Part shown: one piece after another, positions 1,629 through 27,424 of the stretch
Numbering within the stretch: the stretch's first letter is position 1
How the letters are laid out: each line of letters opens with the position of its first letter
Source: Azonexus sp.
GTDB taxonomy: Bacteria > Pseudomonadota > Gammaproteobacteria > Burkholderiales > Rhodocyclaceae
DNA length: 32,701 nt
Direction: 5' to 3'
Assembly (NCBI GenBank): GCA_030691385.1
Contig: JAUYEI010000084.1
Location: 1 to 32,701 of the forward strand
Notes under the pieces: model-generated
What the model was told of the DNA's origin: nothing
Databases searched by the model: none
What the model saw: only the letters and a program-made list of their open reading frames with translations
Translations under genes and position numbers: made by a program

Positions 1629-2894
1629 ATGGCAGCCCCCACCTCACTGGCTCAACATCTGCAGCAGGCCGCGGCCGAACGTCCGCATGCCACCGCATTG
1701 CGGGTTGCCGGCCACTGCCTGAGCTTTGCCGATCTGTTCGCCGACAGCGAAAAACTCGCCGGTCAGCTTGCCAGCCGCCGGGGGGCCATCATCGAAGCCG
1801 GCGACAGCCTGCACCTGGCGCGCCATGCCTGCGCCTGCAGTTTTCAGAATTGGCCGTTTTTTCCGGTTGACCGTGGGAATGCCTTCCCGGCGATCAAGCA
1901 GCCGCTGACCGACGTCGCCCTGATCATCGCGACCAGCGGCAGCGCGGGGAAGCCGCGCGCCGTGCTACTCGGCAACGCCCAGCTCGACGCCGCGGCCGCC
2001 AACTCGAACGAACGCCTGCCGCTGCACCCCGGCGATCTGTGGCTGAACTGCCTGCCGCTCTACCACATCGGCGGCCAGTCCATTTTGTGGCGCTGCGCCC
2101 GGGCTGGCGCGACCGTGCTGCTCCATGACGGTTTCGCCGCCGAGCAGGTTGCCACCGACCTCGCCACCCAAGCAGCCACCCACATTTCGCTGGTCCCGGC
2201 CATGCTCGCCCGGCTCCTCGACCTTGGCGCCAAACCGCCGGCCAGCCTGCGCGTTGCGCTGATCGGCGGGGCCGCGCTCTCGCAGACGCTCCACGACCGG
2301 GCCGTCGCCGCCGGCTGGCCGCTCTACCCGAGCTACGGCATGAGCGAAACGGCAGCCCAGTTCGCCACCTTCGACCCAGCCGAGGGCGCCTGGCACCAAG
2401 GCCTGGTCGGCCGGCCCATGCCCGGCCACAACATCCGCCTCGGCGCCGACGGCCACCTCCAGGTGCGCGGCCCGCAGGTCATGCGCGGCTATCTCGACGG
2501 CAGCGGCATCGACGCCGACGGCTGGCTGACCACCGGCGACCTCGGCCGGATCGACGCCGCCGGCCGCCTGACCATCCTCGGCCGGGCCGACGACATGCTG
2601 ATCAGCGGCGGCCGCAATGTGCATCCGCAGGAAATCGAATCCTGCCTCGCCGCCTGCCCCGGTGTGCTTGATGTCGCCGTCACCGGCCAGCCCGACCCGG
2701 TGTGGGGCGACCTCATCGTCGCCCTCGTCGTCGGCCCCGTCGCGCCGGCCGACCTGCTCGCCCACGCCCGCCGCCATCTGCCATCGGCCGCCTTGCCGCG
2801 AAAAATCCACACCGTCGAGTGCCTGCCGCGCAATGCCACCGGCAAGCTTGAACGCGCCGCGCTACGCCGCCTCGCGGTGGAGGCAGGGCAATGA
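1629..2894 (+). CDS. menE: o-Succinylbenzoate-CoA ligase (MenE), ANL superfamily
   Basis: It activates o-succinylbenzoate with ATP and forms the CoA thioester in menaquinone synthesis. ANL motifs are in order: the P-loop TSGSAGKP near residues 102-109, YGMSETAA near 236, TGD near 302, the hinge GRADDMLISGGRN and the C-terminal catalytic-lysine motif NATGKLER near 402-409. At 421 aa it is slightly shorter than E. coli MenE. The ATG at 1629 is preferred because the upstream frame is only MITE sequence. It overlaps the next gene (isochorismate synthase) by ATGA, which supports the menaquinone role over other acyl-CoA ligases. The short region before the P-loop (FFPVDRGNAFP, about 77-87) is encoded by the dispersed GGTTGACCGT repeat. 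Confidence 0.85.
   Translation: MAAPTSLAQHLQQAAAERPHATALRVAGHCLSFADLFADSEKLAGQLASRRGAIIEAGDSLHLARHACACSFQNWPFFPVDRGNAFPAIKQPLTDVALIIATSGSAGKPRAVLLGNAQLDAAAANSNERLPLHPGDLWLNCLPLYHIGGQSILWRCARAGATVLLHDGFAAEQVATDLATQAATHISLVPAMLARLLDLGAKPPASLRVALIGGAALSQTLHDRAVAAGWPLYPSYGMSETAAQFATFDPAEGAWHQGLVGRPMPGHNIRLGADGHLQVRGPQVMRGYLDGSGIDADGWLTTGDLGRIDAAGRLTILGRADDMLISGGRNVHPQEIESCLAACPGVLDVAVTGQPDPVWGDLIVALVVGPVAPADLLAHARRHLPSAALPRKIHTVECLPRNATGKLERAALRRLAVEAGQ
1857..1881 (+). repeat. Dispersed GGTTGACCGT repeat inside menE
   Basis: The stretch contains TTTTTTCCGGTTGACCGT followed by GGGAATG, identical over its core to intergenic copies at 6461 and 16656. It is read in frame as FFPVDRGN within MenE. Confidence 0.75.
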
Positions 2895-4231
2895 TCCACG
2901 CCCTGCGCCGCTGCCTGAGCGCCCCGGCAACGCTAGCCCGGCTCGAAGCGCTGGCTGTCGGCGCCCCCGCCTCGGCCCCGGTCAGCCTGCGTGTTTCGCT
3001 CGGCCGCGGCACGACCGACTGGCTGCCGCTGCTGCCGGCCGACGCCCCGTACTGGTATCGCGCCCGCCCCGATCACCACGAATATCGTCTCGCCATCGGC
3101 CACGCCCTGCATGTCAGCAGCGCCGGCCCCAACCGTCTGGCCGCGCTGGACAACGCCTTCGCCGGTTTCTGCCGCGACTGGCGGCGCAACGGGCCGGCCT
3201 TCGCCTTCGCCGGTTTTGCCTTCGACGCCGGCAACAACGCGCCACTGCCCAACGCCCTGCTCGCCATCCCGACCATCCTGCTCGAATCGCTCGCCGGCGA
3301 ATGCTCGGTCACACTGAGCGTACCGGCCGGCCGCCTCGCCCAGGCCGCGGCCGAATGGCCGCACTGGCTGGCCGCACCGGCCATCGCCAGCGCCCCACCA
3401 CAGCACCCCGGCCGCCCCGAAACGCTGGCCGAGCGGGCCTGGATAGCCCGCGTCAACGCCGCGCTGCGCGACATCGAGGCCGGCCGGGTGGACAAGATCG
3501 TCCTCGCCCGCAGCCGGAAAATCGAGGCCGATGCACCGTTTTCGGCCGCCACCGTGCTCAGCCAACTGCTTGCCCAGCAACCATCGAGCCTGGTCTACGC
3601 CTACGGCAACAGCCTGCACAGCTTTGTCGGTGCCACGCCGGAACGCTTGGTCCGCCTCGCCGGCACACGTGTCGATGCCGACGCGCTGGCCGGCACATCC
3701 TGGCCTGGCTCGCTGGCCCTGTCCGAAACCAAGAACCGGCGCGAACAGGCACTGGTCGTTCAGGCGATCTGTGCGGCACTCGCGCCATTCTGCGAGAAAC
3801 CCCCGCTCGCCGAGCCGGCGCGGGAACATGCGGCCGGCCAACTGCTCCATCTGCGCAGCCGGGTGGCCGCCATCGTCCGGCCGGGGACGACGCTGTTCGA
3901 ACTGGTTCGCGCCCTGCATCCAACGCCGGCCATCGGCGGCTTTCCGGTCGCCGCGGCACTGGCCTGGCTGGCCGAACACCACGAGCAGCGCAGCGGCTGG
4001 TACAGCGGCGGCATCGGCCTGCTGACGCCGGACGGCGACGGCGAGTTTTCGGTCGCCCTGCGCTCGGCCCTGCTCGCCGGCAATACGGCCGAATTGCAGG
4101 CCGGCGCCGGCATTGTCACCGGCTCCGACGCGCAGCATGAACTGGCTGAAACCACCGCCAAACTGGGTACCGTACTCGCCGCGCTGATCCCGCCGCTCAC
4201 GCCGGAATCCGGCGACAGTCTCCGCGCCTGA
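2891..4231 (+). CDS. menF: Isochorismate synthase (MenF-type), chorismate-utilising family
   Basis: It converts chorismate to isochorismate, the first committed step of menaquinone synthesis. The C-terminal chorismate-binding domain is clear: DKIVLAR near residue 201 carries the general-base lysine, FVGATPERL follows, HPTPAIGGFP lies near 342-351, and GAGIVTGSD with a downstream ELAETTAKL forms the magnesium-binding end. The N-terminal part is variable, as is usual for the family. Length (446 aa) is normal. The start ATG overlaps the menE stop by 4 bp, indicating translational coupling. A siderophore-type or salicylate-type isochorismate synthase would be the alternative, but adjacency to menE favours MenF. 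The other men genes are not in the window. Confidence 0.87.
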   Translation: MIHALRRCLSAPATLARLEALAVGAPASAPVSLRVSLGRGTTDWLPLLPADAPYWYRARPDHHEYRLAIGHALHVSSAGPNRLAALDNAFAGFCRDWRRNGPAFAFAGFAFDAGNNAPLPNALLAIPTILLESLAGECSVTLSVPAGRLAQAAAEWPHWLAAPAIASAPPQHPGRPETLAERAWIARVNAALRDIEAGRVDKIVLARSRKIEADAPFSAATVLSQLLAQQPSSLVYAYGNSLHSFVGATPERLVRLAGTRVDADALAGTSWPGSLALSETKNRREQALVVQAICAALAPFCEKPPLAEPAREHAAGQLLHLRSRVAAIVRPGTTLFELVRALHPTPAIGGFPVAAALAWLAEHHEQRSGWYSGGIGLLTPDGDGEFSVALRSALLAGNTAELQAGAGIVTGSDAQHELAETTAKLGTVLAALIPPLTPESGDSLRA

Positions 4232-4265
4232 GAATTTGGCGAAAATTTACGTTTCACGCAGTAAA

Positions 4266-4284
4266 CCCGGTTGACCGTAGCAAT
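4266..4284 (+). repeat. Dispersed GGTTGACCGT repeat upstream of ppk
   Basis: CCCGGTTGACCGTAGCAAT lies between menF and ppk. The 11-bp core CGGTTGACCGT is exact, but the T-rich stretch and hairpin that accompany it elsewhere are missing or diverged. Confidence 0.6.
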
Positions 4285-4343
4285 CAACGACAGAACGTCA
4301 TCTCCCTGCAATTTTTATGCAACAAAATGATGGGCTTAAAGCC

Positions 4344-4366
4344 TATACTTCAGAAAAAACATGGAG
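4344..4366 (+). promoter_or_regulatory. Possible -10 box and Shine-Dalgarno for ppk
   Basis: TATACT at 4344-4349 could be a -10 element; no convincing -35 is present. GGAG at 4363-4366 sits 8 bp before the ATG at 4375 and decides that start over the in-frame ATG at 4327, which lies upstream of the promoter-like sequence. Confidence 0.4.
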
Positions 4367-4374
4367 ATGACGCG

Positions 4375-6456
4375 ATGACCCATCCGCTGCCAAAACCCCG
4401 CTTCCCGACCGAAAATTACCTCAACCGCGAACTCGGCTTGCTCGCCTTCAACCGGCGCGTTCTGGCCCAGGCCGAAGACGAGCGCATGCCGCTGCTCGAA
4501 CGCCTGCGCTTCCTGTGCATCGTCTCGAGCAACCTCGACGAATTCTTCGAAATCCGCATGGCCGGGCTCAAGGAGCAGGTCAAGGCGCACGCCACCGTGG
4601 TCACCACCGACGGCAAGACAGCGCAGGAAGCCTACCGGCTGGTCTCGGCCGAGGCGCACGCCATCGTCAACGAACAGTATCAGCACCTCAATGACATCAC
4701 CCTGCCGGCGCTGGCCAACGAGGGCATCCGCTTCCTGCGCCGCTCGACGTGGAACGAGGCGCAGCGCGAGTGGATCCGCAATTATTTCATCCACGAAATG
4801 GTGCCGGTACTGACGCCGATCGGGCTCGACCCGTCGCACCCCTTCCCGAAAGTGCTGAACAAGAGTTTGAACTTTGCCATCGAACTCGAAGGCAAGGATG
4901 CCTTCGGGCGCAGTTCCAACGCCGCCATCGTCCAGGCGCCGCGCGTCCTGCCGCGCGTCATCCAGTTGCCGGAAGAACTGGCCGGCTGCGCCTACGGCTT
5001 CGTTTTCCTGTCGTCGATCCTGCATGAATTCGTCGGCGAACTGTTCACCGGCATGACCGTGCTCGGCTGCTACCAGTTCCGCGCCACGCGCAATTCCGAC
5101 CTTTTCGTCGACGAGGAAGAAGTCACCAACCTGCGCACCAAGCTGCAGGGCGAGTTGCCCCAGCGCCATTTCGGCAACGCCGTGCGTCTCGAAGTCGCCA
5201 ACAATTGTTCGGAGGCGATGACCGAATTCCTGCTCGCCCAGTTTGCCCTCAAGCCGACCGATCTTTACCGCGTCAATGGTCCGGTCAATCTCGTCCGCCT
5301 CATGCAGGTGCCGGACTGGGTCGATCGCCCCGACATGAAATTCCGCCCCTTCGTGCCCGGCCTGCCCAAGGCCGTCGGCAAGGGCGTCAATATTTTCGAC
5401 AGCATCCGCAAGACCGACGTGCTGCTCCACCACCCCTACCAGTCTTTCGCGCCGGTCATCGAGTTTCTGAGTCAGGCGGCGACCGACCCGGCCGTGGTCG
5501 CCATCAAGATGACGGTCTATCGCACCGGCACCGACTCGGTGCTCATGGAGTCGCTGATCCGCGCCGCCCAGAACGGCAAGGAAGTCACCGTCGTCGTCGA
5601 ACTCATGGCGCGCTTCGACGAGGAAGCCAACATCAGCTGGGCGACCAAGCTCGAAGACGTCGGCGCCCACGTGGTTTATGGCGTCGTCGGCTACAAGACG
5701 CACGCCAAGGCCCTGCTCATCGTGCGCCGCGAAGAAGGCGGCCTCAAGCGCTACGCCCACCTCGGCACCGGCAACTACCACCCGCGCACCGCCCGCCTTT
5801 ATTCCGACTTCGGCCTGATGACGGCCAACGACGAAGTCACCCGCGACGTCAGCGAAGTCTTCAAGCAACTGACCGGGCTGGGTCAGGCGCGCACGCTCAA
5901 GCACCTGTGGCAGGCGCCTTTCACGCTGCACGCCAATGTCGTCGCCGGCATTCTTGCCGAGGCAGAAACCGCCAGGGCCGGCGGCAAGAGCCGCATCGTC
6001 GCCAAGATGAATTCGCTGCTCGAACCGGAAGTCATCGACGCGCTCTACCAGGCCTCGCAGGCCGGCGTCGATATCGACCTCATCATCCGTGGCGTCTGCG
6101 CCCTGCGCCCCGGCGTCCCGGGGCTGTCGGAAAACATCCGCGTCCGCTCCATCATCGGCCGCTTCCTCGAACACCACCGGATCTTCTACTTCCTGGCCGG
6201 CGGCAAGGAAACCGTCTACCTCTCCAGCGCCGACTGGATGGAGCGTAATTTCTTCAAACGCATCGAACTCGCCTTCCCCATCCTCGACCCCAAGCTCAAA
6301 AAGCGCGTCATCACCGAAGGCCTCAAGTTCTACCTGGCCGACAACCAGCAAGGCTGGGACATGAACGGCCAGGGCGCCTACCAGCGCCGTCGCTCGTCGC
6401 GCAGCAAGCCGCACAACGCCCAGGGCGAACTGATGGTGACGCTGGGCACCAGCTAA
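4375..6456 (+). CDS. ppk1: Polyphosphate kinase 1
   Basis: PPK1 reversibly polymerises the gamma phosphate of ATP into inorganic polyphosphate, usually at the inner membrane. The protein (693 aa, close to E. coli 688) starts with the N domain (NRELGLLAFNRRVL, SSNLDEFFEIRMAGL), followed by the head domain and two phospholipase-D-like catalytic domains. The autophosphorylated histidine lies in YKTHAKALLIV near residue 443 and the second catalytic histidine in LEHHRIFYF near 600. The late motif SADWMERNFFKRIE is also intact. It is followed by a terminator-bearing repeat, so it appears to be a single-gene unit. No convincing PhoB box was seen upstream. Confidence 0.97.
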   Translation: MTHPLPKPRFPTENYLNRELGLLAFNRRVLAQAEDERMPLLERLRFLCIVSSNLDEFFEIRMAGLKEQVKAHATVVTTDGKTAQEAYRLVSAEAHAIVNEQYQHLNDITLPALANEGIRFLRRSTWNEAQREWIRNYFIHEMVPVLTPIGLDPSHPFPKVLNKSLNFAIELEGKDAFGRSSNAAIVQAPRVLPRVIQLPEELAGCAYGFVFLSSILHEFVGELFTGMTVLGCYQFRATRNSDLFVDEEEVTNLRTKLQGELPQRHFGNAVRLEVANNCSEAMTEFLLAQFALKPTDLYRVNGPVNLVRLMQVPDWVDRPDMKFRPFVPGLPKAVGKGVNIFDSIRKTDVLLHHPYQSFAPVIEFLSQAATDPAVVAIKMTVYRTGTDSVLMESLIRAAQNGKEVTVVVELMARFDEEANISWATKLEDVGAHVVYGVVGYKTHAKALLIVRREEGGLKRYAHLGTGNYHPRTARLYSDFGLMTANDEVTRDVSEVFKQLTGLGQARTLKHLWQAPFTLHANVVAGILAEAETARAGGKSRIVAKMNSLLEPEVIDALYQASQAGVDIDLIIRGVCALRPGVPGLSENIRVRSIIGRFLEHHRIFYFLAGGKETVYLSSADWMERNFFKRIELAFPILDPKLKKRVITEGLKFYLADNQQGWDMNGQGAYQRRRSSRSKPHNAQGELMVTLGTS

Positions 6457-6460
6457 AAAC

Positions 6461-6487
6461 CATTCCGACGGTCAACCGGAAAAAAGG
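6461..6487 (-). repeat. Dispersed GGTTGACCGT repeat, 3' of ppk
   Basis: CATTCCGACGGTCAACCGG plus an A-run starts 5 bp after the ppk stop. It continues into GGCGAAAAATGAAATGCGGC, which forms the left arm of the terminator hairpin. This is one of the best preserved copies. Confidence 0.85.
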
Positions 6488-6497
6488 GCGAAAAATG

Positions 6498-6525
6498 AAA
6501 TGCGGCTTGCGGGCCGCATTTTTGT
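6498..6525. terminator. Bidirectional intrinsic terminator between ppk and the attH-like gene
   Basis: A 9-bp perfect stem, AAATGCGGC and GCCGCATTT, with a 6-base loop is followed by T-rich sequence on the plus strand (TTTTTGTTG). On the minus strand the arm is followed by TTTCATTTTTCGCC. It can end both converging units, and its left arm is part of the dispersed repeat. Confidence 0.8.
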
Positions 6526-6536
6526 TGTGCGAGACC

Positions 6537-6557
6537 ACGTCCAACTGAGGTTTCAAG
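6537..6557 (+). repeat. Solo right end of the MITE-like element
   Basis: CGTCCAACTGAGGTTTCAAG matches the right terminus of the copies at 1-127 and 1417-1611. It ends directly against the stop codon of the minus-strand gene at 6558. The rest of the element is missing. Confidence 0.7.
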
Positions 6558-7661
6558 TCAAATGCTGATTTTCTCGCCATACCCGGTCATCTCCAGATAG
6601 CCGTATCCGACGTTCCGGCCGTCTTCCGCGACGCGTACCGCGCCTTCCCAATAGACGGCACCGGTCGAGGCACGGCTGTCGAGTTCCTGATCGTCGATCA
6701 GCGGTCGCAACAGCAGGATCCGCCGGCCTATGCGGACCCGCCATTCGACCGGATAGACAATGCCGGTACGCCCGGAGCGCCAGTGGCGCAAGGGCTCGAA
6801 AGCGACATCCGCCGGCGCCAGCACTTGCGCCTGGCCACCGGCCGGCCGGAAGGTCGCCGCCGACCACAGCGGCGACCCATCCCGGTGGCGCAGACGAAAG
6901 GCCATCAGCGCACCGCCATCGTCAAGATTGACCCCGAGCCAGTCCCAGCCCTGCGCCGCCTCCGGCAGTAGCTGGCTGGACCACTCGTGATCCAGCCAGG
7001 CACGGCCGGTCACCGGATGGGGCCGACCGGCGAGCGTCACCGTGCCGCTCGCCGCCAGTTGCGGACGGCTGTAGTAATAGCTGGCATGGCGCGGGTCGGG
7101 GGCCTTGACGCTATACCCCGAGCGGCCGTGGAGCAGCGGCGGCGCGGCGGCGACGAGATCGAGCGCGTAGGCGAAATCCGCGGCCTTGGCCTCGATGCGA
7201 TAGTGCTCGCCGTGCTGCGCGAAACGCCAGTCGCCGATCCATAGACCGGTTTGCCCGGTGGCAAAGCCGGCGCGGCCAAAACCGGTGCGTGCGGCGCGCT
7301 GGTCGTGATGCAGGCGCCCCCATTGCGGGTCGGCGATCGCGGCATGGGCGAGCACTAGCTGGCGCGGCGCGAAGGCACTCGGGTTGTCCTCGGCGAGGCC
7401 GGTGCGCAGGCGGAAGAAAGTGCTCTGAAAACCCAGCGGCCTGCCGTCCGCCAGACTCAGCCAGCCGGTGGCATACCACCACTCGATGCGAAAATCCGGA
7501 TGCGCGCCGTGATCGCGCGGAAAAACCAGTTTGTAACCGGGGACAACGGCAGCGAAATCCTCTGCCGCACCGCGCTGCGGGCCGGCCCATACGGCCATGG
7601 CGCGCCATGCCGGCAGGCTGGCCAGGGCAAGGAGCAAGGCGCGGCGTCGGGACATGATCAC
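6558..7661 (-). CDS. Secreted lipocalin-like / AttH-family protein (DUF2006-type, carotenoid 1,2-hydratase-like fold)
   Basis: The N terminus (SRRRALLLALASLPAWRAMA) looks like a Tat or Sec signal, so the product is probably periplasmic or lipid-facing. The mature part has the AttH/CrtC-like motifs EWWYATGWL near residue 60, STFFRLR, YYYSRPQL, GRAWLDHEWSSQ and GWDWLGVNLDDG. In related operons this protein accompanies an FtsX-type ABC exporter (AttEFGH-like). Its ligand is unknown, and the annotation predicted hydrolase is not supported by visible catalytic residues. The start at 7661 overlaps the upstream permease stop by ATGA, showing coupling; an alternative ATG is 6 bp downstream. Length (367 aa) is typical. 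Confidence 0.8.
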   Translation of the reverse strand: MIMSRRRALLLALASLPAWRAMAVWAGPQRGAAEDFAAVVPGYKLVFPRDHGAHPDFRIEWWYATGWLSLADGRPLGFQSTFFRLRTGLAEDNPSAFAPRQLVLAHAAIADPQWGRLHHDQRAARTGFGRAGFATGQTGLWIGDWRFAQHGEHYRIEAKAADFAYALDLVAAAPPLLHGRSGYSVKAPDPRHASYYYSRPQLAASGTVTLAGRPHPVTGRAWLDHEWSSQLLPEAAQGWDWLGVNLDDGGALMAFRLRHRDGSPLWSAATFRPAGGQAQVLAPADVAFEPLRHWRSGRTGIVYPVEWRVRIGRRILLLRPLIDDQELDSRASTGAVYWEGAVRVAEDGRNVGYGYLEMTGYGEKISI

Positions 7662-10800: not shown

Positions 10801-10921
10801 ATGGCTAGGAGGCTTCCAGACCCGGCCAGTTCCCCTTGAGTGAGGAGCGATGTGCTAGGGTAAGCAAGGGCATCACAATTGATTTGGCCGTTAACCATCC
10901 ACCATACACACCATTGCAGCC

Positions 10922-11302: not shown

Positions 11303-11303
11303 A

Positions 11304-11349
11304 CCTTGAAACCTCAGTTGATCGAGACTTCCACGGTCAACCGGAAAAA
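11304..11349 (-). repeat. MITE end fused to a GGTTGACCGT repeat, 3' of the DUF2784 gene
   Basis: CCTTGAAACCTCAGTTGA (11304-11321), a left end of the MITE-like element, is followed 7 bp later by TTCCACGGTCAACCGG plus an A-run. The element body is absent, so only its terminus and the mini-repeat are joined. The composite begins 2 bp after the upstream gene's stop codon. Confidence 0.8.
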
Positions 11350-11362
11350 TTGGCAAAAAATG

Positions 11363-11388
11363 AAATGCGGCTGGCGGGCCACATTTTT
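11363..11388 (+). terminator. Intrinsic terminator after the DUF2784 gene
   Basis: The stem AAATGCGGC / GCCACATTT has one mismatch and is followed by TTTTTAT. It is homologous to the terminator after ppk (same left arm and same preceding repeat), so it travelled with the repeat and has since mutated in one arm. Confidence 0.65.
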
Positions 11389-11534
11389 ATTGGCGTCACA
11401 CCACTGGCATTCCAATCGCCAGTCACAACGCCGTAACGTAATGATGTTATCAATGATGACCCTCTCCAAGCATGCAGGGAGGGCGAGTTGCTCCCCAGGC
11501 GCTTGAGAATGAATGCGGTTTCGCAGAGGGAATC

Positions 11535-16371: not shown

Positions 16372-16605
16372 CCTTGAAACCTCGGTTGGACGCGGCAGAT
16401 GGTGCGCCTGGGCGGGATGGCCGGCGCCAAGCGACGCCGCAGCAGGCTCATGCCTGCAAGGAGCAGCGACAAGGCCGGACGCCCGACCAGTCGTGCCAGC
16501 GGCCACGTAGCGCTGTCAGCCAAGGGGTGAATGTCTCGAAGGGACAAAAGCCCGTATTCATGCGACTGGTCAGGGATAGGTAAGCGGTCAACTGAGGTTT
16601 CAAGG
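16372..16605 (-). mobile_element. MITE-like element, copy 3 (234 bp, full length)
   Basis: The element runs from CCTTGAAACCTCGGTTGGAC to GGTCAACTGAGGTTTCAAGG. Its inverse complement is collinear with copies 1 and 2 and contains the 39 bp missing from copy 2. The ends are imperfect inverted repeats. A minus-strand ORF of about 100 codons crosses it, but its product is merely the translated repeat. It lies between the HD-GYP sensor gene and the cytochrome b561 gene. Confidence 0.85.
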
Positions 16606-16655: not shown

Positions 16656-16680
16656 CATTCCGACGGTCAACCGGAAAAAA
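16656..16680 (-). repeat. Dispersed GGTTGACCGT repeat, 3' of the cytochrome b561 gene
   Basis: CATTCCGACGGTCAACCGG plus six A residues is identical over 25 bp to the copy after ppk. It is followed immediately by a different terminator hairpin. Confidence 0.85.
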
Positions 16681-16709
16681 GCCGCCAAATTGAAATCTGG
16701 CGGCTTTTT
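16681..16709. terminator. Bidirectional intrinsic terminator after cytochrome b561
   Basis: The stem GCCGCCA / TGGCGGC has a 10-base loop, with TTTTT on the plus side and, on the minus side, TTTTTT supplied by the adjoining dispersed repeat. It ends the minus-strand cytochrome operon. Confidence 0.85.
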
Positions 16710-16739
16710 CTTCTGACGGTTGGGAAACCTCTCCGTCGG

Positions 16740-17429
16740 TTACCAGATCGGCGTTTCCGCCGCCGGCGGCGGAGGCGGCTCGGGCAACCAGGCCCCGCTG
16801 GCGCCATAGACTGCAGCAGCGGCAACGATCAAGGCAACGATCGATACCTTCAGGCCGCCGCCCCTGGCTGGCTCGCCACTTACGCCCTCCTTCCAGCCGG
16901 TCAGCATGGGCTTGATCAGGTCGTCCTTCTTGAAGTGACCATGGAAGGCAACAGCAACAACATGGAGGACGACGAGGGCGATGAGCACGTTGGAAAGCAG
17001 GTGGTGGATGCCGGTCAGGCGGTCGCTCAGCACCTTGCTGACCAATTCGTACAGCGGGCCGACAAAGGCGATATCGTCGTTGGCGAACAGGCCGCTGGCG
17101 ACTTGCACGGTCAACAGGAAAATCAGGCTGAAAACGGAAAGCCCGCCCAGCGGATTGTGACCCAGGCCGCGCCATTCGCCTTTCAGATAAACCTTGATCC
17201 TGGCCGGCGTCGGGAAGAACTGGGCGAAGCGCGCGTAGGTCGAACCGGCGAAGCCCCAGACGAGACGAAAGGCAATAAGGCCGACGATGGCCAGACCGAT
17301 CTTGCCGTGCACGTCGATCAGCTTGCCGCCCACCTGCCCGCTGACGATGGCGACGACAAAGGCCAGTACGAGCAGCCAGTGAAACAGGCGGGTGGGCAGA
17401 TCCCAGAGGCGAATGCGTTGGCTGATCAT
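16740..17429 (-). CDS. Cytochrome b561-type di-heme membrane protein
   Basis: A 229-aa inner-membrane cytochrome b of the bacterial b561 / Ni-Fe hydrogenase b-subunit type. It begins RLWDLPTRLFHWLL with H17, then H41 (DVHGKIGL), H142/H143 (GIHHLLSN) and H156 (VVLHVVAV), which are the likely axial heme ligands over four membrane segments. A C-terminal proline-rich tail (PEPPPPPAAE) follows a fifth hydrophobic segment. It lies downstream of the cytochrome c' gene, with a hairpin terminator between them. The pairing suggests electron transfer between the quinone pool and the periplasmic cytochrome; that link is inferred from context only. Confidence 0.88.
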   Translation of the reverse strand: MISQRIRLWDLPTRLFHWLLVLAFVVAIVSGQVGGKLIDVHGKIGLAIVGLIAFRLVWGFAGSTYARFAQFFPTPARIKVYLKGEWRGLGHNPLGGLSVFSLIFLLTVQVASGLFANDDIAFVGPLYELVSKVLSDRLTGIHHLLSNVLIALVVLHVVAVAFHGHFKKDDLIKPMLTGWKEGVSGEPARGGGLKVSIVALIVAAAAVYGASGAWLPEPPPPPAAETPIW

Positions 17430-18435: not shown

Positions 18436-18504
18436 TTTAGTTGTTAGTCGGTGGTGGCGTTTGGTTAAGGATTGGCTCGGCGCTACGCGGCCGCATTCGG
18501 TTTT

Positions 18505-18540
18505 GCTAACAGCTAATGACTAGCCGCTAGCAACTAGCAC
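18505..18540. repeat. CTAGC/TAGTTG-rich short repeat cluster
   Basis: GCTAACAGCTAATGACTAGC followed by CGCTAGCAACTAGCACC consists of partly repeated and inverted TAGC/ACTAGC words. A related half, TTAGTTGTTAGTCGG, is at 18434-18448. It resembles the larger inverted repeat at 24961-25020 and fills the gap between the DUF2322 and zinc-ribbon genes. Confidence 0.55.
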
Positions 18541-18816: not shown

Positions 18817-18817
18817 G

Positions 18818-20215
<1,398 letters not shown>

Positions 20216-20246
20216 TTACCCGCCCGGCGAAGCCGTCGCCATACGC

Positions 20247-20252
20247 TATAAT
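20247..20252 (+). promoter_or_regulatory. Likely -10 box of gst (TATAAT)
   Basis: A perfect TATAAT lies 27 bp before the gst start codon within the 94-bp divergent gap to purB. No clear -35 is found at 16-18 bp. Confidence 0.5.
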
Positions 20253-20279
20253 CGAACTCCCCAAATCAGAGAGCGCACG

Positions 20280-20888: not shown

Positions 20889-20912
20889 AACACCGGATCA
20901 GCCATAACGACA

Positions 20913-20941
20913 GGGGTGCCCGCGGGCACCCCTTGTTTTTT
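20913..20941 (+). terminator. Strong intrinsic terminator after gst
   Basis: GGGGTGCCCGCGGGCACCCC, a perfect GC-rich palindromic stem, is followed by TTGTTTTTT. It lies 24 bp after the gst stop. Confidence 0.9.
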
Positions 20942-21039
20942 GCGGAACGAAATCACGATCGGCCTTGTTTCAAATGAACCCCTGAGCCAATCTGGCAGTC
21001 AACTCTTTAGACCCGATAACCGGCGCGAGGCATAAAACT

Positions 21040-21645
21040 GTGAAAACCATACCCGATGATGTACCGATGCAGAAAGTCGCCCTCTCGCTGGCCACTGCGC
21101 TGGGCGCGCGCGATCTGCACACCCGGGCGCATTCCGACCGGGTCGTCCAGCTCTCGACCGAAATGGGTCAGCACATCGAACTCTCGGATGAAGAGCTGGA
21201 AATGCTCGCCTTGGGCGCGCAATTTCACGATCTGGGCAAGATTGGCATTCCCGACAATGTATTGCGCAAACCAGCCGCTTTCGAAGAAGACGAATGGATC
21301 TGCATGAAGCAGCATGCGGTGATCGGCGAACAGATCATTCTCGCCATCAATGGCGAACAATCGCCGGCCATCGCCCGCACCGTGCGCCATCACCATGAAC
21401 ATTTCGATGGTTCAGGCTATCCGGACGGACTGCGCGGAACGGACATTCCGCTCTATTCGCGGATCATCTCGCTGGCCGACAGCTACGACGCAATGGTCGA
21501 AACCCGGGCCTACCACCCGCCACGCCGGCACCAGGAAGTCATGGCCATCCTGGACAGAGAGGCCGGGAGCAAACATGATCCCGACCTGCTCAATGCCTTC
21601 CGGGTCATTATCGAAAAATCGTCGATGCGCGGCCAGGACGGCTGA
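21040..21645 (+). CDS. Stand-alone HD-GYP domain protein (putative c-di-GMP phosphodiesterase)
   Basis: A 201-aa soluble protein consisting almost only of the HD-GYP domain. It shows HTRAHSDRVVQLS near residue 27, the HD pair in FHDLGKIGIPDNVL near 63-76, HHHEHFDGSGYPDGL near 117-131, and the metal-binding region SLADSYDAM. All core metal ligands appear intact, so it is probably active. The late YR-containing motif is changed to AYHPPRRHQ. The start is the GTG at 21040 with GAGG 9 bp upstream. No receiver or sensor domain is attached, so control must come from expression or a partner. It converges with mnmA. Confidence 0.88.
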   Translation: MKTIPDDVPMQKVALSLATALGARDLHTRAHSDRVVQLSTEMGQHIELSDEELEMLALGAQFHDLGKIGIPDNVLRKPAAFEEDEWICMKQHAVIGEQIILAINGEQSPAIARTVRHHHEHFDGSGYPDGLRGTDIPLYSRIISLADSYDAMVETRAYHPPRRHQEVMAILDREAGSKHDPDLLNAFRVIIEKSSMRGQDG

Positions 21646-21656
21646 ACGCGTTCAGC
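21641..21656. terminator. 16-bp perfect palindrome spanning two convergent stop codons
   Basis: GCTGAACGCGTTCAGC contains the TGA of the HD-GYP gene on the plus strand and the TGA of mnmA on the minus strand, placed symmetrically. It can form a hairpin between converging transcripts but has no T-run. Confidence 0.4.
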
Positions 21657-22749
21657 GGATGACCCCGCCCCCCAGGCAGACGCGGCTCTCGTAGAGCACC
21701 ACCGACTGCCCCGGCGTGAGCGCCCACTGGGGCTCGGCAAAGCGGATTTCGCAGCTTTCACCATCGACACGTTCGACCTCGCAGGCTTGATCCACCGTCC
21801 GGTAACGCGGCTTGGCGGTATAAACCCAGTGCGTATGCGGCGCCTGCGCCGACACCCATGAAAGCTGCTCGGCGACCAGATCGTCTCGCAGCAGGGCCGG
21901 ATGGTCGTGCCCTTGGACGACGTACAGCACATTTTTTTCCATGTCCTTGCCGACCACGAACCAGGCGTCGTGATCGCCGCCGCCGGGCTGACCTTTTTCC
22001 TTGAGGCCGCCAATGTGCAGGCCCTTGCGCTGCCCCATGGTGTGGAACATCAGGCCGTCGTGCTCGCCGAGCACCTTGCCGTCATCGAGGCGGCGGATTT
22101 CGCCTTTCTTGGGCGGCAGGTAGCGACTGAGAAAATCCTTGAACGGCCGTTCGCCGATGAAACAAATGCCGGTCGAATCCTTCTTCGCCGCGACGTGCAA
22201 GCCTTCGGCCTCGGCGATCTTGCGCACTTCGCGCTTGTAGATGTCGGCCAGCGGAAAAAGCGTTTTCGACAACTGCGCCTGATTCAGGCGATAAAGAAAA
22301 TAGCTCTGGTCCTTGGTCCCGTCCTCGGCCTTGAGCAGCTGGAATTCGCCGTTGAATTCGCGCACGCCGGCGTAGTGGCCGGTGGCGATCTTGTCGGCGC
22401 CGAGTTGCATGGCGTGGTCGAGGAAGGCCTTGAACTTGATTTCGGAATTGCACAGGATGTCCGGATTCGGCGTCCGCCCGGCCTGGTATTCGCGCAGGAA
22501 CTCGGCGAAGACGCGCTCGCGGTATTCGCCGGCGAAATTGACCACCTCGACGTCGATGCCGATACGGTCGGCGACGCTCATCACGTCGATCAGATCCTGG
22601 CGCGACGAACAGTATTCCTCGGTGTCGTCGTCTTCCCAGTTCTTCATGAACAGGCCGATCACCTTCCAGCCCTGCTGCTTCAACAGCAAGGCCGCCACGG
22701 ACGAATCAACGCCGCCGGACAAACCGACGACCACAGTTTTTTCAGACAT
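21652..22749 (-). CDS. mnmA: tRNA-specific 2-thiouridylase
   Basis: MnmA adenylates U34 of Lys, Glu and Gln tRNAs and transfers sulfur relayed by Tus proteins. The protein (365 aa) has the PP-loop SGGVDSS at 11-17, the NWEDDD motif near 37-42, the first catalytic cysteine C100 ([13 protein letters not shown]) and the second C196 (STGICFIGE), plus the C-terminal beta-barrel region [13 protein letters not shown]. The start MSEKTVVV at 22749 is chosen by family alignment and the AAAGGGGC upstream. It overlaps the stop of the preceding secreted-protein gene by 8 bp. A longer in-frame start lies inside that gene and is rejected. Confidence 0.97.
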
Positions 22750-23296
22750 CGGGCCCAGCCCCTTTCTTCCATTCACCCAGCGGCAAAACCACCGCCGGCT
22801 GTCCATTATCGACGAACCAGCTATCGACGACGAAGCGCGGCGCTTCGCCATCCATTTTTTCCTCGATCACCGCTGACCAGTGCACGAAAAACACCGTGAT
22901 GGCGTCCCGCGCCACCGGTTCAAGAACCCTGTGCCAACGCAGGTAGCCGCGCGCTTCGAGCAGCTTGAGCAGGCGCGTCGTCGAGGTCGAATGATCGATG
23001 CAGTCCATCTTGCCCGAGACATGGCCGTCGGCGTAATTGCCGCCACGGTCGTTGTGGATGTCCGACTGCTCGCCAGCCCAGGCGTAGAGAAGGCCGATCG
23101 CCTCCGATATCATTTTTCGCTCATTTTCCGGGTTGACCGTGGAAATGAGCATGCGCCGCACCTCGCCGAACTGCCCCTCGGTGTAGCGGATATCCGCCTG
23201 CACCAGGCACCCGTAGCCGTAGCAGATGCGCACCGTTTCATCGGCCGCAACCGCGCCCGGAAGCGCCAGCAACAAGGCGAGCAGCCAGCGACGCAT
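22742..23296 (-). CDS. Secreted protein of unknown function (184 aa)
   Basis: I do not recognise this family. The start [18 protein letters not shown] is a typical Sec signal peptide, so the mature protein is periplasmic. It contains a cysteine pair ([10 protein letters not shown]) near residues 24-31 and a third cysteine in [11 protein letters not shown] near 97, a CxxH arrangement that resembles a catalytic or redox motif but cannot be assigned. The ATG overlaps the Nudix gene stop by one base (TGATG), and its stop lies within the mnmA start region, so it is co-translated between two housekeeping genes. A copy of the dispersed GGTTGACCGT repeat is embedded in frame ([12 protein letters not shown]). 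Confidence 0.75.
23111..23147 (+). repeat. Dispersed GGTTGACCGT repeat inside the secreted-protein gene
   Basis: CATTTTTCGCTCATTTTCCG followed by GGTTGACCGTGGAAATG aligns over about 37 bp without gaps to the copies after ppk and DUF2784, including the CATTTTTCGC half. It lies antisense within the coding frame. Confidence 0.75.
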
Positions 23297-23757
23297 CAGT
23301 CGTAATGCACGAGCAGGTCGAGCGGGTATTGCTTGCCGGCAATGAAATCCTCGATGCACTGGAGGATCAGCGGGCTGCGGTGCCTTTCCTGCGTCGACCT
23401 GACTTCGTCGAGCGTCAGCCAGCGGGCAGCAACAATACCTTCATCAAGCGGCCGATCGGCCTCATAACCGTGTAATTCGCCAGCGAAGGCGAAGCGCAGG
23501 TAGGTCGCATCGTCCTTGGTCGGATGCGTCCAGTTATAGACGCCGACCAGATGCGTCGGCTTGAAGTGGTAGGCGGTTTCTTCGAGCGCCTCGCGGACCA
23601 CGGCAGCGAGCAAGGACTCGCCCTTCTCAAGATGGCCGGCCGGCTGGTTGAAGGCCAGTCCGGCCTCGGTTTCTTCCTCGACCAGCAGGAATTTGCCGTC
23701 ACGCTGGACAACGGCGGCGACGGTGACATGGGGTTTCCAGATCATGCTCGGGTTCAA
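23296..23757 (-). CDS. nudJ: NudJ-like Nudix hydrolase
   Basis: A 153-aa cytosolic phosphohydrolase. The Nudix box at about residues 41-63 reads GHLEKGESLLAAVVREALEETAY, that is Gx5Ex7REx2EE, with alanine where the last glycycl position usually is. PHVTVAAVVQRDGKFLLVEE and HYHFKPTHLVGVYNWTHP-like segments follow the NudJ pattern. NudJ-type enzymes remove phosphate from nucleoside and thiamine-precursor pyrophosphates. Synteny with mnmA, as in E. coli, supports the name. A second ATG (MIWKPHV) 12 bp downstream is an alternative start. It is the first gene of the nudJ, secreted protein, mnmA unit. Confidence 0.85.
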   Translation of the reverse strand: MNPSMIWKPHVTVAAVVQRDGKFLLVEEETEAGLAFNQPAGHLEKGESLLAAVVREALEETAYHFKPTHLVGVYNWTHPTKDDATYLRFAFAGELHGYEADRPLDEGIVAARWLTLDEVRSTQERHRSPLILQCIEDFIAGKQYPLDLLVHYD

Positions 23758-23792
23758 TCGGCAAAGGCGCTATTTTACCCGCTGATTTCGGC

Positions 23793-23798
23793 TAGAAT
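23793..23798 (+). promoter_or_regulatory. Likely -10 box of ilvE (TAGAAT)
   Basis: TAGAAT lies 36 bp before the ilvE ATG, in the 77-bp divergent gap to the Nudix gene. ACGGAGAA at 23820-23827 is the Shine-Dalgarno. No clear -35 is seen. Confidence 0.45.
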
Positions 23799-23834
23799 TA
23801 TGGGCTTTTACAGGCGCAACACGGAGAATCGAAC

Positions 23835-24755
23835 ATGTCCATGTCGGATCGCGACGGCTTTATTTGGCAAGACGGCAAACTGGTGCCCTGGCGCGAAGCC
23901 ACCACCCACGTCCTCACCCACTCCCTGCACTACGGGATGAGTGTCTTCGAGGGCGTCCGTGCCTACAAGACCGAACGCGGCACCGCCATCTTCCGCCTGG
24001 AAGAGCACACCGACCGCCTGTTCAACTCCGCCCACATCTTCCAGATGGTCATGCCTTTCGACAAGGCGACCATCAACGAAGCGCACAAGGAAGTGCTGCG
24101 CGCCAACAAGCTCGAATCCGGCTACCTGCGTCCGATTGCCTTCTACGGCTCGGAAAAGATGGGCGTCTCGCCGAAGGGCGCCAAGGTCCATGTCGCCATC
24201 GCCGCCTGGCCGTGGGGCGCCTACCTCGGCGAAGAAGGCCTGGAGCGCGGCATTCGCGTCAAGGTGTCGAGTTTCACCCGCCACCACGTCAATATCTCGA
24301 TGGTCCGCGCCAAGGCCTCGGGCCACTACATCAATTCCATCCTGGCCAATAACGAAGTGACCAACGAAGGTTACGACGAAGCCATGCTGCTCGACCCTGA
24401 AGGCTACGTCGCCGAAGGTGCCGGCGAGAACCTGTTCATCGTCAAGAAGGGCAAGCTGTACACGCCGGACCTGACCTCCTGCCTGGAAGGCATTACCCGC
24501 GCCACCGTGCTGCAGATCGCCGAAGAGCTGGGCCTTGCCGTCCAGGAAAAACGCATCACCCGCGACGAAGTCTATTGCTGCGACGAAGCCTTCTTCACCG
24601 GCACCGCAGCCGAAGTCACGCCGATCCGCGAACTCGACGGCCGGCAGATCGGCATCGGCCGCCGCGGCCCGATCACCGAGAAGATCCAGGCCAAGTATTT
24701 CGACGTGGTCTATGGCCGCTCGGCCCAGCACGACAACTGGCTGGCCTACATTTAA
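23835..24755 (+). CDS. ilvE: Branched-chain amino acid aminotransferase
   Basis: A class IV PLP aminotransferase that carries out the last step of valine, leucine and isoleucine synthesis using glutamate. The protein (306 aa) shows THSLHYGMSVFEGVRAY near residues 28-44, the PLP lysine K160 in VRAKASGHYINS, the class IV signature EGYVAEGAGENLF near 190-202, and EGITRATVLQIAEELG. All match proteobacterial IlvE. It starts the plus-strand run ilvE, zf-CHCC, waaF, NTF2-like, hydrolase; the zf-CHCC gene starts 16 bp after it. Confidence 0.96.
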   Translation: MSMSDRDGFIWQDGKLVPWREATTHVLTHSLHYGMSVFEGVRAYKTERGTAIFRLEEHTDRLFNSAHIFQMVMPFDKATINEAHKEVLRANKLESGYLRPIAFYGSEKMGVSPKGAKVHVAIAAWPWGAYLGEEGLERGIRVKVSSFTRHHVNISMVRAKASGHYINSILANNEVTNEGYDEAMLLDPEGYVAEGAGENLFIVKKGKLYTPDLTSCLEGITRATVLQIAEELGLAVQEKRITRDEVYCCDEAFFTGTAAEVTPIRELDGRQIGIGRRGPITEKIQAKYFDVVYGRSAQHDNWLAYI

Positions 24756-24771
24756 GTTCAGGGAGAACGAG

Positions 24772-24960
24772 ATGTCCGACAACAAGACCGTTGAAATCAC
24801 CGCCCACGACCTGCCGCTGCACTGCCCGACGCCGAGCGTCGCGCTGTGGAGCCAGCATCCGCGCGTCTTCCTCGACGTCCTGAAGACCGGCGAAGTGACC
24901 TGCCCGTACTGCTCGACCAAGTACGTCTTCACGGGCGAAGCGCCCAAGGGGCACCACTGA
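24772..24960 (+). CDS. zf-CHCC zinc-finger protein (NDUFS6-like)
   Basis: A 62-aa protein with one zinc site formed by C18 (LHCPTP), H29 (SQHPRVFLDV), C44 and C47 (TCPYCSTKYVF). This is the Cys-His-Cys-Cys finger shared with the mitochondrial complex I subunit NDUFS6. In betaproteobacteria it commonly follows ilvE. The role is unproven; a part in respiratory complex assembly is inferred from homology. The ATG at 24772 follows GGGAGAACGAG. Confidence 0.9.
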   Translation: MSDNKTVEITAHDLPLHCPTPSVALWSQHPRVFLDVLKTGEVTCPYCSTKYVFTGEAPKGHH

Positions 24961-25020
24961 TAGTCGCTAGTAGCAAGTCGTTAGTTGCTAGCAACTAACA
25001 ACTAGTAACTACCGACTAGC
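24961..25020. repeat. 60-bp imperfect inverted repeat before waaF
   Basis: The centre GTTAGTTGCTAGCAACTAAC is a perfect 20-bp palindrome (24980-24999). The arms extend outward as TAGTCG-TAGT on the left and ACTA-CGACTA on the right with some mismatches. It fills the whole gap between the zf-CHCC and waaF genes and ends 3 bp before the waaF ATG, leaving no normal Shine-Dalgarno. It is related in wording to 18505-18540. Confidence 0.75.
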
Positions 25021-25023
25021 TTT

Positions 25024-26034
25024 ATGAAAGCGCTCATCGTCGCCCCCTCCTGGATCGGCGACACCATCATGGCGCAGCCGCTGTTTGCCCGCCTGCATGC
25101 CAGACATCCCGGCCTCCAGCTCGACGCCATCGCCCCGCGCTGGGTGGCGCCCGTCCTGCACCGCATGGCGGAAATCAGCGACGTCCTTGACAGCCCCTTC
25201 GGCCACGGCCAACTGTCGCTCAAGCCGCGCTGGAAACTCGCCCGCCAGCTCGCCGCCCGCCATTACGACGCTGTCTACGTCCTGCCCAATTCGCTCAAGT
25301 CGGCGCTCGTGCCGTGGCTGGCCGGCATTCCGCAGCGCGTCGGCTTCACTGGCGAATCGCGCTACGGCCTGATCAACGTCCGTCACACCCTCGACAAGGC
25401 CGCCCTGCCGCTCATGGTCGAACGCTTTGCCCAACTGGCCGAAACGCCGGGCAGTCGATTGGGAAATTTCATTTTCAGGCCAAAAATCCGGTCGACCGTG
25501 GAAGACCAGCAAAAAGCCCTGACCGAACTGGCCATCGCGCGCCCGGCCCGCGTTGTCGCCTTTTGCCCCGGTGCCGAATACGGCCCGGCCAAACGCTGGC
25601 CGGCTACCCATTTCGCGGCGCTGGCCAAAAAACTGGCCGAACAGGGTTGCGCCATCTGGCTCTTCGGTTCGCCCAAGGACCACGCCGTCGCTGAGGAAAT
25701 TTCGCAACTCGCCCCCGGCCTCTGCCGCAACCTGTGTGGCGCCACCTCGCTGACCCAGGCCGTCGACCTGCTGGCCATGGCCGAACTCGTCGTCTGCAAC
25801 GATTCCGGTCTCATGCACGTCGCCGCCGCACTGGACCGGCCGATCGTCGCGCTCTACGGCTCCTCGTCGCCCGGCTTCACGCCGCCGCTTTCCGACCGCG
25901 CCGACATCCTGAGCCTCAATCTCGACTGCAGCCCCTGCTTCAAGCGCGAATGCCCGCTCGGCCACCTCGACTGCCTCAACAAACTGCTCCCCGAGCAAGT
26001 CTTTGCCGCCTGCCAGAAAAGGATGACGCCATGA
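25024..26034 (+). CDS. waaF: Lipopolysaccharide heptosyltransferase II
   Basis: It adds the second L-glycero-D-manno-heptose to the LPS inner core at the cytoplasmic face of the inner membrane. This 336-aa GT9 family protein starts MKALIVAPSWIGDTIMAQPL with the conserved aspartate at residue 13. The nucleotide-sugar side shows FCPGAEYGPAKRWP, CNDSGLMHVAAAL near residues 258-270, and the loop ALYGSSSPGFTPPL. The tail SLNLDCSPCFKRECPLGHLDC is typical of WaaF. Its stop overlaps the next gene by ATGA. A dispersed-repeat copy encodes part of the interdomain linker (FRPKIRSTVE). Confidence 0.95.
   Translation: MKALIVAPSWIGDTIMAQPLFARLHARHPGLQLDAIAPRWVAPVLHRMAEISDVLDSPFGHGQLSLKPRWKLARQLAARHYDAVYVLPNSLKSALVPWLAGIPQRVGFTGESRYGLINVRHTLDKAALPLMVERFAQLAETPGSRLGNFIFRPKIRSTVEDQQKALTELAIARPARVVAFCPGAEYGPAKRWPATHFAALAKKLAEQGCAIWLFGSPKDHAVAEEISQLAPGLCRNLCGATSLTQAVDLLAMAELVVCNDSGLMHVAAALDRPIVALYGSSSPGFTPPLSDRADILSLNLDCSPCFKRECPLGHLDCLNKLLPEQVFAACQKRMTP
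25461..25505 (+). repeat. Diverged GGTTGACCGT repeat inside waaF
   Basis: GGGAAATTTCATTTTCAGGC followed by CAAAAATCCGGTCGACCGTG aligns without gaps to the copies after ppk and DUF2784. It has one change in the core (GGTCGACCGT). It is read in frame as NFIFRPKIRSTVE. Confidence 0.6.
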
Positions 26035-26462
26035 GCGGGCCAACCGTTTATGCCCTGCCCGACGACGTCGAACGCGCCTTCTACGAAGCCATCGTCGAGG
26101 GTGACGCCGACCGCATGATGCAGCTCTGGGCCGAAGACGACGAAACGCTGTGCGTCCACCCGACCGGCGTTCGCCTGCTCGGCCTCGTGCCGATCCGCGA
26201 AAGCTGGCGCAGCATCTTTGTCAATGCCCGCCTGCGCGTCCAGGCCGAACCCGTCGCCCACTGGAACGGCACGATCATCGCCGTCCATCACCTGACCGAA
26301 ATCCTTTTCGTCGGCGACGACCCGAACCCGCACGGTCCGCTCTACGTCACCCACGTCTACGTCCGCGGCCCGCATGGCTGGCGCCTGGCCAGCCGCCACG
26401 CCTCGGCCGCCGACGACAGCCATCAGGCGATGGCCGAGGCCGTGCCGCACACCCTGCATTGA
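26031..26462 (+). CDS. NTF2-like / SnoaL-like small protein
   Basis: A 143-aa cytosolic protein with the cone-shaped NTF2 fold pattern: an N-terminal helix (VERAFYEAIVEGDADRMMQLW), a strand with CVHPTGVRLLG, a helix with IRESWRSIFVNA, and terminal strands HVYVRGPHGWRLASRHAS. Such proteins act as small-ligand enzymes or as association domains; the substrate is unknown. The ATG overlaps the waaF stop by 4 bp, and its own stop overlaps the TTG start of the following hydrolase. It belongs to the ilvE-waaF unit. Confidence 0.85.
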   Translation: MSGPTVYALPDDVERAFYEAIVEGDADRMMQLWAEDDETLCVHPTGVRLLGLVPIRESWRSIFVNARLRVQAEPVAHWNGTIIAVHHLTEILFVGDDPNPHGPLYVTHVYVRGPHGWRLASRHASAADDSHQAMAEAVPHTLH

Positions 26463-27424
26463 AGCCGCCCAAGCCCTATCACGCACCGAGCTGGCTGCCC
26501 GGCGGTCAGGCGCAAACCTTGTGGCCGCTGCTCATCAAGCCGCAGCCGCTCAAGCTGCGCCGCGAACGCTGGACAACGCCCGATGGCGATTTCATCGATG
26601 TCGATCACCTTGACGGCCCGCCAGAAGCACCGCTGCTCGCCCTCTTCCACGGCCTCGAAGGCAGCGCCAACAGCCATTACGCCATCTCGACCGCCCACGC
26701 CTGCAAAGCCGCCGGCTGGCGCCTTGCCCTGCCGCATTTCCGCGGTTGCTCGGGCGAACTGAACCACCGGCCGCGCGCTTACCATTCCGGCGACGCCGAA
26801 GAAATCGACTGGATCCTGCGCCGCCTGCATGCTGCCAACGGCGGCCGCAAGCTCCACGCCGCCGGCGTTTCGCTCGGCGGCAACGCCCTGCTCAAATGGG
26901 CCGGCGAACGCGGCGTGGCGGCTGGCGAACTGGTCACCGGCGTTGCCGCGTTCTGCGCGCCGCTCGACCTCACCGCCTGCGGCCACCATCTGGCCAACGG
27001 TTTCAACCGCATCTACACCCGCCACTTCCTGACCACGCTCAAAGCCGTTTCGGCCAGCCGCCTGCAGCAGTTCCCCGGACTATTCGACGAAACCCGCATG
27101 CGCCGGGCAATCAATCTCTACGAATTCGACGATGCGGTGACCGCCCCCATCCACGGCTTTGCCGGTGCCGACGACTACTGGCGACGCGCCTCGGCCAAAC
27201 CGTGGCTCAAATCGATCGCCGTACCGACGCTCACGGTCAACCCGAAAAATGACCCGTTTTTGCCATCCCGCTATCTGCCGACGGCCGCCGACGTCAGCCC
27301 CTGCATCCGCCTCGAACAGCCCGAAAGCGGCGGCCATGTGGGATTTGTCACAGGTTCTTTTCCGGGAAATCTGGACTGGCTACCGCAAAGGCTTTTACAC
27401 TTCTTCCTTTTTGAAACGTCATAA
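26459..27424 (+). CDS. YheT-like alpha/beta hydrolase
   Basis: A 321-aa hydrolase of the YheT/ABHD1-3 group. The N-terminal motif PSWLPGGQAQTLWPLL is diagnostic. The nucleophile serine lies in GVSLGGNALLKW near residue 138, the acid in NPKNDPFLP near 264 and the histidine in SGGHVGFV near 291. The physiological substrate is unknown; members show esterase activity. No ATG is available before the PSWLPGG motif. The TTG at 26459, which overlaps the upstream stop as TTGA, is the natural start. It is the last gene of its unit. Confidence 0.88.
   Translation: MKPPKPYHAPSWLPGGQAQTLWPLLIKPQPLKLRRERWTTPDGDFIDVDHLDGPPEAPLLALFHGLEGSANSHYAISTAHACKAAGWRLALPHFRGCSGELNHRPRAYHSGDAEEIDWILRRLHAANGGRKLHAAGVSLGGNALLKWAGERGVAAGELVTGVAAFCAPLDLTACGHHLANGFNRIYTRHFLTTLKAVSASRLQQFPGLFDETRMRRAINLYEFDDAVTAPIHGFAGADDYWRRASAKPWLKSIAVPTLTVNPKNDPFLPSRYLPTAADVSPCIRLEQPESGGHVGFVTGSFPGNLDWLPQRLLHFFLFETS
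27231..27261 (-). repeat. GGTTGACCGT repeat-like stretch in the YheT-like gene
   Basis: CACGGTCAACCCGAAAAATG carries the exact 10-bp core. It also encodes the family's conserved TVNPKNDPF motif with the catalytic aspartate, so this copy may be a chance match or a selectively retained one. Confidence 0.35.

Follow-up and report, generated by a model that had tools for sequence, protein, structure and literature searches.

A dispersed repeat with one-sided A/T tracts in Azonexus genomes is a probable DNA uptake word

We analysed a stretch of 32,701 nucleotides (hereafter the window; contig JAUYEI010000084.1, positions 1 to 32,701, of assembly GCA_030691385.1) from Azonexus sp., a member of the Rhodocyclaceae whose genus was formerly named Dechloromonas (PMC12455942). 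Within and between its genes (e.g. those for a ligase, polyphosphate kinase, cytochrome b561 and a heptosyltransferase) lie copies of a short dispersed repeat centred on the 10-mer GGTTGACCGT. The original prediction, made from the letters of the window, counted seven exact copies, and all seven are present, some of them one base away from where they had been placed. It had also named a single copy with one change, at 25490; this site is real, but there are two more one-mismatch sites, at 17107 and 11575. The former belongs to a full element, and the latter is treated as a chance match because it lacks A/T tracts and falls outside the 16 best matches of the profile described next. Altogether, the window holds 10 sites with at most one mismatch, whereas 100 shuffles give a mean of 1.72 and never more than 7. 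A 41-bp profile, built from 46 copies lying outside the window, detects nine elements in it (Table 1), plus a weak one at 19988–20028 (score 13.0), and finds nothing scoring above 8 in the reversed window.

Table 1. Elements found in the window with the 41-bp profile.
Element	Strand	Core	Core position	Setting	Profile score
1841..1881	+	exact	1865–1874	in AMP-dependent (menE-like) ligase gene, reads FFPVDRGN	58.5
4245..4285	+	exact	4269–4278	intergenic, upstream of polyphosphate kinase gene	34.7
6461..6501	-	exact	6468–6477	intergenic, after polyphosphate kinase; distal T tract doubles as the T run that follows a terminator-like hairpin (6498–6521)	56.8
11326..11366	-	exact	11333–11342	intergenic, adjoins a weaker hairpin	62.8
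16656..16696	-	exact	16663–16672	intergenic, inside a strong hairpin	52.3
17100..17140	-	one mismatch, TGTTGACCGT	17107–17116	in cytochrome b561 gene	35.4
23107..23147	+	exact	23131–23140	in predicted gene beside mnmA	48.2
25466..25506	+	one mismatch, GGTCGACCGT	25490–25499	in heptosyltransferase (glycosyltransferase family 9) gene	38.1
27226..27266	-	exact	27233–27242	in alpha/beta hydrolase gene, encodes TVNPKNDPFLP	30.1

In our gene calls, three of the seven exact copies are inside genes, as had been proposed, and the intergenic ones number four rather than three. The further proposal that the intergenic copies sit at terminators applies to part of them: 6461–6521 is terminator-like (fold z -1.56) and 16656–16725 folds strongly (z -5.18), but the fold at 11326–11395 is weak (z -0.45) and 4245–4300 has none (z +0.88).

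The repeat is abundant far beyond the window, and neither of the two outcomes that the original prediction had named as refuting it (a genome-wide count at chance level, or a restriction to the window) was obtained. In the window's own assembly (G000; 3,448,501 bases in 129 contigs), GGTTGACCGT occurs exactly 462 times (225 + 237 in the two orientations), compared with 18 (13 + 5) for the reversed word. Sites with 0, 1 and 2 core mismatches stand at 53:65:515 when 1:30:405 would be expected at random. Alignment of 36 copies, and then of 53 copies from 433 kb of G000, gives a 41-bp consensus, ATTTCAWTTTTGGCCGWTTTTTCC-GGTTGACCGT-GGGAATS, of which the CATTTT half and the GGRAATG flank described originally are genuine parts. 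In the 53-copy alignment, information is concentrated at positions -24 to +16 and drops to near zero just beyond the element. The core is partly palindromic (CGGT-TG-ACCG), and T-rich tracts occupy positions -8 to -3, -18 to -14 and -24 to -21, i.e. the A/T tracts lie on one side of the core and about one helical turn (~11 positions) apart in G000.

We then compared the distribution of the word among genomes. Across 60 genomes of the genus, exact GGTTGACCGT is present in 2 to 580 copies; 118 genomes from the family's other genera have 22 at most. A detector combining the core and the distal tract (CGGTCRAC-N15-WWWWW) finds 251–992 copies in 39 of 76 genus genomes, 45–126 in nine (including G047 and G048) and 4–34 in 28, with a control at 16 or fewer; outside the genus it yields no more than 14 copies in any of 194 family genomes and no more than 26 in any of 397 further genomes from the phylum, for which controls reach 71. 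Genomes with more than 200 detector copies are hereafter called motif-rich, a cut chosen after the counts were known, and the nine intermediate genomes are counted as motif-poor. In named-species genomes, a 37-bp pattern matched 39 stretches, all of them in records of Betaproteobacteria, Gammaproteobacteria, Proteobacteria, Rhodocyclaceae, Azonexaceae or Dechloromonas metagenome-assembled genomes. Among the genomes searched, the word is confined to one genus and is at background elsewhere. Separately, two stretches of viral contigs carry TTTTTCCGGTTGACCGT. The reversed control TGCCAGTTGG is perhaps another over-represented word in G073, a genome from another genus of the family, where it reaches 98 copies; no other genome in the same search has more than 31.

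Counts of GGTTGACCGT alone are misleading, as some of the relatives in which it is scarce have a different dialect of the word. Unsupervised searches for 8-mers with A/T context return CGGTCAAC/ACGGTCAA in G000, CGGTCAAC and TGCGGTCA in G043, CGGTCGAC in G039, CGGTCAAC and CGGTCGAC in G030, CGGTCAAC in G059 and GTTGCGGT in both G024 and G020, and no dialect word among the best unsupervised 8-mers of G047, G044, G048 and G035. The 10-mer AGCGGTCGAC has 481 copies in G039 (control 27); in each of the remaining 59 genomes it stays at 55 or below, a level that the control word attains there too. G039 has a weak near tract, and the position of the distal tract relative to the core, found de novo in several species, is constant across dialects. 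The G039 dialect also sometimes forms a palindrome, AGCGGTCGACCGCT, at three sites in 400 kb (e.g. L081:12131–12144 and 7343–7356), which consists of two overlapping words in opposite orientation.

The origin of the elements was followed at two in-gene sites, picked because the window has a copy there; contrasts among other clades are independent of that choice. At the hydrolase site (27226–27266), 57 of the 60 genomes matched and 50 orthologues were used, none with a gap in or around the element. The core CGGTCAAC is present in 28 of 30 motif-rich genomes and in none of the 20 others, six of which are intermediate genomes; the TTTTT tract is present in 26 of 30 and 0 of 20, and the others often encode the same residues as TTCCTG or TTTCTG. 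Seven matched genomes, all with fewer than 40 motif copies, were initially left out: G004, G006, G013, G022 and G042 were dropped as short matches only, and the motif-poor G001 and G050, added later, show no core, tract or gap in an alignment that would itself hide insertions. On a tree of this single gene with the element columns removed, the rich or poor state requires 10 changes, at least seven of them on supported branches. Of seven independent contrasts, an average of 6.8 have the core differing as expected and none shows the reverse (median p 0.016); for the TTTTT tract the average is 6.4 (median p 0.031). At the heptosyltransferase site (25466–25506), 48 of 50 loci matched and gave 48 orthologues, again with no gap, and GGTCGACCG is present in 25 of 28 motif-rich genomes and none of 20 others. 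Because there are no gaps and the codons are homologous at both sites, the elements arise there by base substitution and not by insertion. A similar gap test has been used to argue that the uptake signal sequences (USS) of Pasteurellaceae are not insertions (PMC1626085).

These alignments bear directly on one family of explanations, into which the REP-like and mobile mini-element options of the original prediction fall, i.e. a mobile mini-element resembling miniature inverted-repeat transposable elements (MITE), or a repetitive extragenic palindrome (REP) or bacterial interspersed mosaic element (BIME), spread by a REP-associated tyrosine transposase (RAYT; Y1 type). REP and BIME families with RAYT have many short dispersed copies, partly dyad and often intergenic, and the repeat described here resembles them in each of these respects; its long and strong consensus, the many intergenic copies and the terminator-like hairpins at some of them also fit, and Y1_Tnp genes are at hand, with two in G000 and at least one in 26 of 60 genus genomes. 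Nevertheless, an inserted element would hardly be expected to show 0 gaps in 50 and 48 orthologues, common in-gene copies, information near zero just outside its ends and several dialects of one architecture. Furthermore, of the six genomes with most copies of GGTTGACCGT, four lack a Y1_Tnp match, namely G002, G012 (85% complete), G052 and G053. The gap test and this absence together disfavour a REP-type origin, and we regard mobility as very unlikely.

The spread of the word along and among chromosomes constrains a second explanation, that it marks sites of a chromosome-organising or recombination factor, for which KOPS/FtsK, Chi/RecBCD and matS/SlmA/Noc are the types for comparison. A chromosome-wide distribution, a partly palindromic core and copies within genes are all compatible with such sites. 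But in 20 stretches of 20 kb from G039 (400 kb, 50 copies), 18 of which carry the word, the two strands carry 15/15 copies in the stretches of positive GC skew and 6/14 in those of negative skew. No clear replichore strand bias is seen in this sample, and orientation totals over the motif-rich genomes are 10902/11036. In addition, the length of the element and its phased A/T tracts fit poorly, and 28 of the 76 species have the word at about background level, with the repeated changes of state described above. An essential function would hardly tolerate such an on/off pattern. With the strand balance, this pattern makes a chromosome factor just as improbable as mobility.

Placement relative to genes was assessed with a simple gene caller of our own. 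In the G000 sample, which is 91.7% coding, 21 of 53 copies are in genes (11/10 by orientation) and 32 are intergenic, 10 of these between convergent genes; in the G039 sample (88.1% coding), 33 of 50 copies of its own word are in genes (17/16). If the word were an operator for a nucleoid protein or a global transcription factor, this could account for the imperfect dyad of the core and for 32 of 53 copies lying in ~8% of the sequence, but such a role is very unlikely, given the copies within genes in both orientations, those between convergent genes and a core that switches dialect while the tracts stay constant.

Two further observations were made in these sequences. In some pilin-like genes the word coincides with the prepilin cleavage region, at G000:C3:22640 (L008, reading ...VDRGFTLVEM) and at two similar places in G039. 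A second dispersed family, MITE-like with inverted ends CCTTGAAACCTCAGTTG and ~195–235 bp long when complete, has copies in the window at 1417–1611 and 16372–16605 and single ends near 111, 6542 and 11304; with up to two mismatches allowed, 433 kb of G000 contain 25 such ends and 100 kb of G043 contain 2, and G047 and G039 have none in the 400 kb searched in each.

Genes for DNA uptake are widespread in the genus. ComEC is encoded by 56 of 60 genomes, all 41 good ones among them, and DprA by 75 of 76, with 50 of the 51 good ones; G000 has both, and prepilins are present in all eight genomes checked, G000 among them. Competence genes were considered as a separator of motif-rich and motif-poor genomes and were rejected because both groups have ComEC and DprA. 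In two genomes, i.e. G002 (motif-rich; G002:C33:109525–144033) and G044 (motif-poor; G044:C1:2218607–2251879), the ComEC match breaks off at an identical point of the profile and resumes ~33 kb away, a pattern that insertion of a large element into comEC would produce. The first candidate for a receptor is a minor pilin cluster in G000 (L234; G000:C103:500–7000) with FimT/GspH-like, PilV, PilW-like and PilE-like members. Among the eight genomes compared, the only matches to its PilV- and PilW-like members are in G039, a motif-rich genome of another clade, and comparison of the pilins with NCBIfam and PDB sequences returns type IV pilin only, with PilV named for one. Passages of the genome paper of D. 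aromatica describe that species as likely to be transformationally competent and do not mention such a word (PMC2907700).

Taken together, these features suggest that the repeat serves natural transformation as a signal by which a cell recognises DNA of its own kind for uptake, with a USS-like architecture and in a third bacterial family, a reading based on sequence comparison to which we assign a probability of about 0.85. Of the options raised originally, it is the uptake word that gains support from the hundreds of copies in both orientations, the dialects, the gap-free orthologues at two sites, the A/T-tract architecture and the uptake genes. The core ACGGTCAACC/GGTTGACCGT would be bound by a receptor on the cell surface, probably a minor pilin of type IV, the phased A/T tracts would help to bend or melt the DNA for entry through the outer membrane, and ComEC would then carry it in. 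If fragments bearing the word were taken up more often, a point mutation that makes a better word would tend to be copied back by recombination, and the word would for this reason build up by substitution, in both orientations, wherever it is tolerated (i.e. in intergenic spacers, terminators and synonymous codons). Species would come to differ by dialect, and the word would decay once specificity or competence is lost, which may be the cause of the motif-poor state.

Several observations weigh against an uptake signal. The intergenic share in G000 (32 of 53) is high compared with the 35% implied for Haemophilus influenzae, in which 956 USS (65%) are in coding regions (PMC1626085). At the heptosyltransferase site, only three supported independent contrasts are available (p 0.25), and the shorter core GGTCGAC occurs in two of the 20 motif-poor genomes. 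The presence of ComEC and DprA in most motif-poor genomes leaves rich and poor unseparated, the motif-rich G019 has no DprA match, and the Y1_Tnp genes noted above, two of them in G000, also have to be counted here. Finally, among 109 putative prepilins, no family is present in all four motif-rich and absent from all four motif-poor genomes compared; the regular expression used took in a few false prepilins and lost some of 125 matches, and absence from G035 is weak evidence because just five regions of it were covered.

We also compared the element with the known uptake sequences, as described in passages of PMC1626085, PMC3630211 and PMC12616744. The USS of Pasteurellaceae (Hin-type AAGTGCGGT, Apl-type ACAAGCGGT(C)) has a 9-bp core and two A/T segments at roughly single-turn spacing, with segment 3 of the Hin type centred 12 positions from segment 2 (PMC1626085). 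The repeat shares with it a short strong core with two one-sided A/T segments about one turn apart, subclade dialects, both orientations and an origin by substitution, and its weakness in some species may parallel the weaker USS of a species thought to have lost uptake. Its counts are similar to those of the 10-mer in Apl-type species (429 and 506; PMC1626085), and the Apl-type USS shares AGCGGTC with the G039 dialect. By contrast, the present word belongs to a betaproteobacterial genus and has a lower density. The core ACGGTCAACC of the window's genome has ACGG without the inner GCGG that some other species of the genus use. In our own alignment, the distance between CGGT and the start of the first tract exceeds that of the Hin type by ~6 bp. 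Because that inner GCGG is missing in the window's genome, we file the element as working like a USS, i.e. as a putative variant of the uptake-sequence kind and not as the Pasteurellaceae USS itself.

The DNA uptake sequence (DUS) of Neisseriaceae also has dialects, and inverted or overlapping pairs and an association with terminators have been described for it (PMC3630211); here, too, hairpins can carry single copies and the words overlap in some pairs, and the G039 palindrome recalls the overlapping DUS pairs of S. muelleri (PMC3630211). Unlike DUS, a continuous word of 10–13 nt without flanking motifs (PMC1626085, PMC12616744), the present element is longer, lacks the inner CTG and has flanking A/T tracts.

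Only Neisseriaceae and Pasteurellaceae are described, in the passages concerned, as discriminating among DNA in this way (PMC12616744). In the open-access literature (subscription papers and preprints were not covered) we found nothing on uptake sequences in Rhodocyclales or Rhodocyclaceae; among the matches listed, the Dechloromonas/Azonexus and Betaproteobacteria literature reports no such word, and the papers listed for the word itself concern unrelated subjects.

A bolder reading is that the receptors are homologous, so that the G039 word (AGCGGTC plus A/T tracts) and the Apl-type ACAAGCGGTC plus tracts would be dialects of one recognition system of beta- and gammaproteobacteria, related by descent or transfer. 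We consider this doubtful, but if it holds, the repeated on/off switching in this genus would offer a way to find the USS receptor. If the repeat is indeed an uptake signal, its occurrence in a third family, an environmental one in which dialects exist and rich and poor states have alternated many times, would show that self-recognition in transformation arose or spread more often. Both the question of why self-recognition evolves and the search for the USS receptor would then be open to comparative tests outside the known pathogen families.

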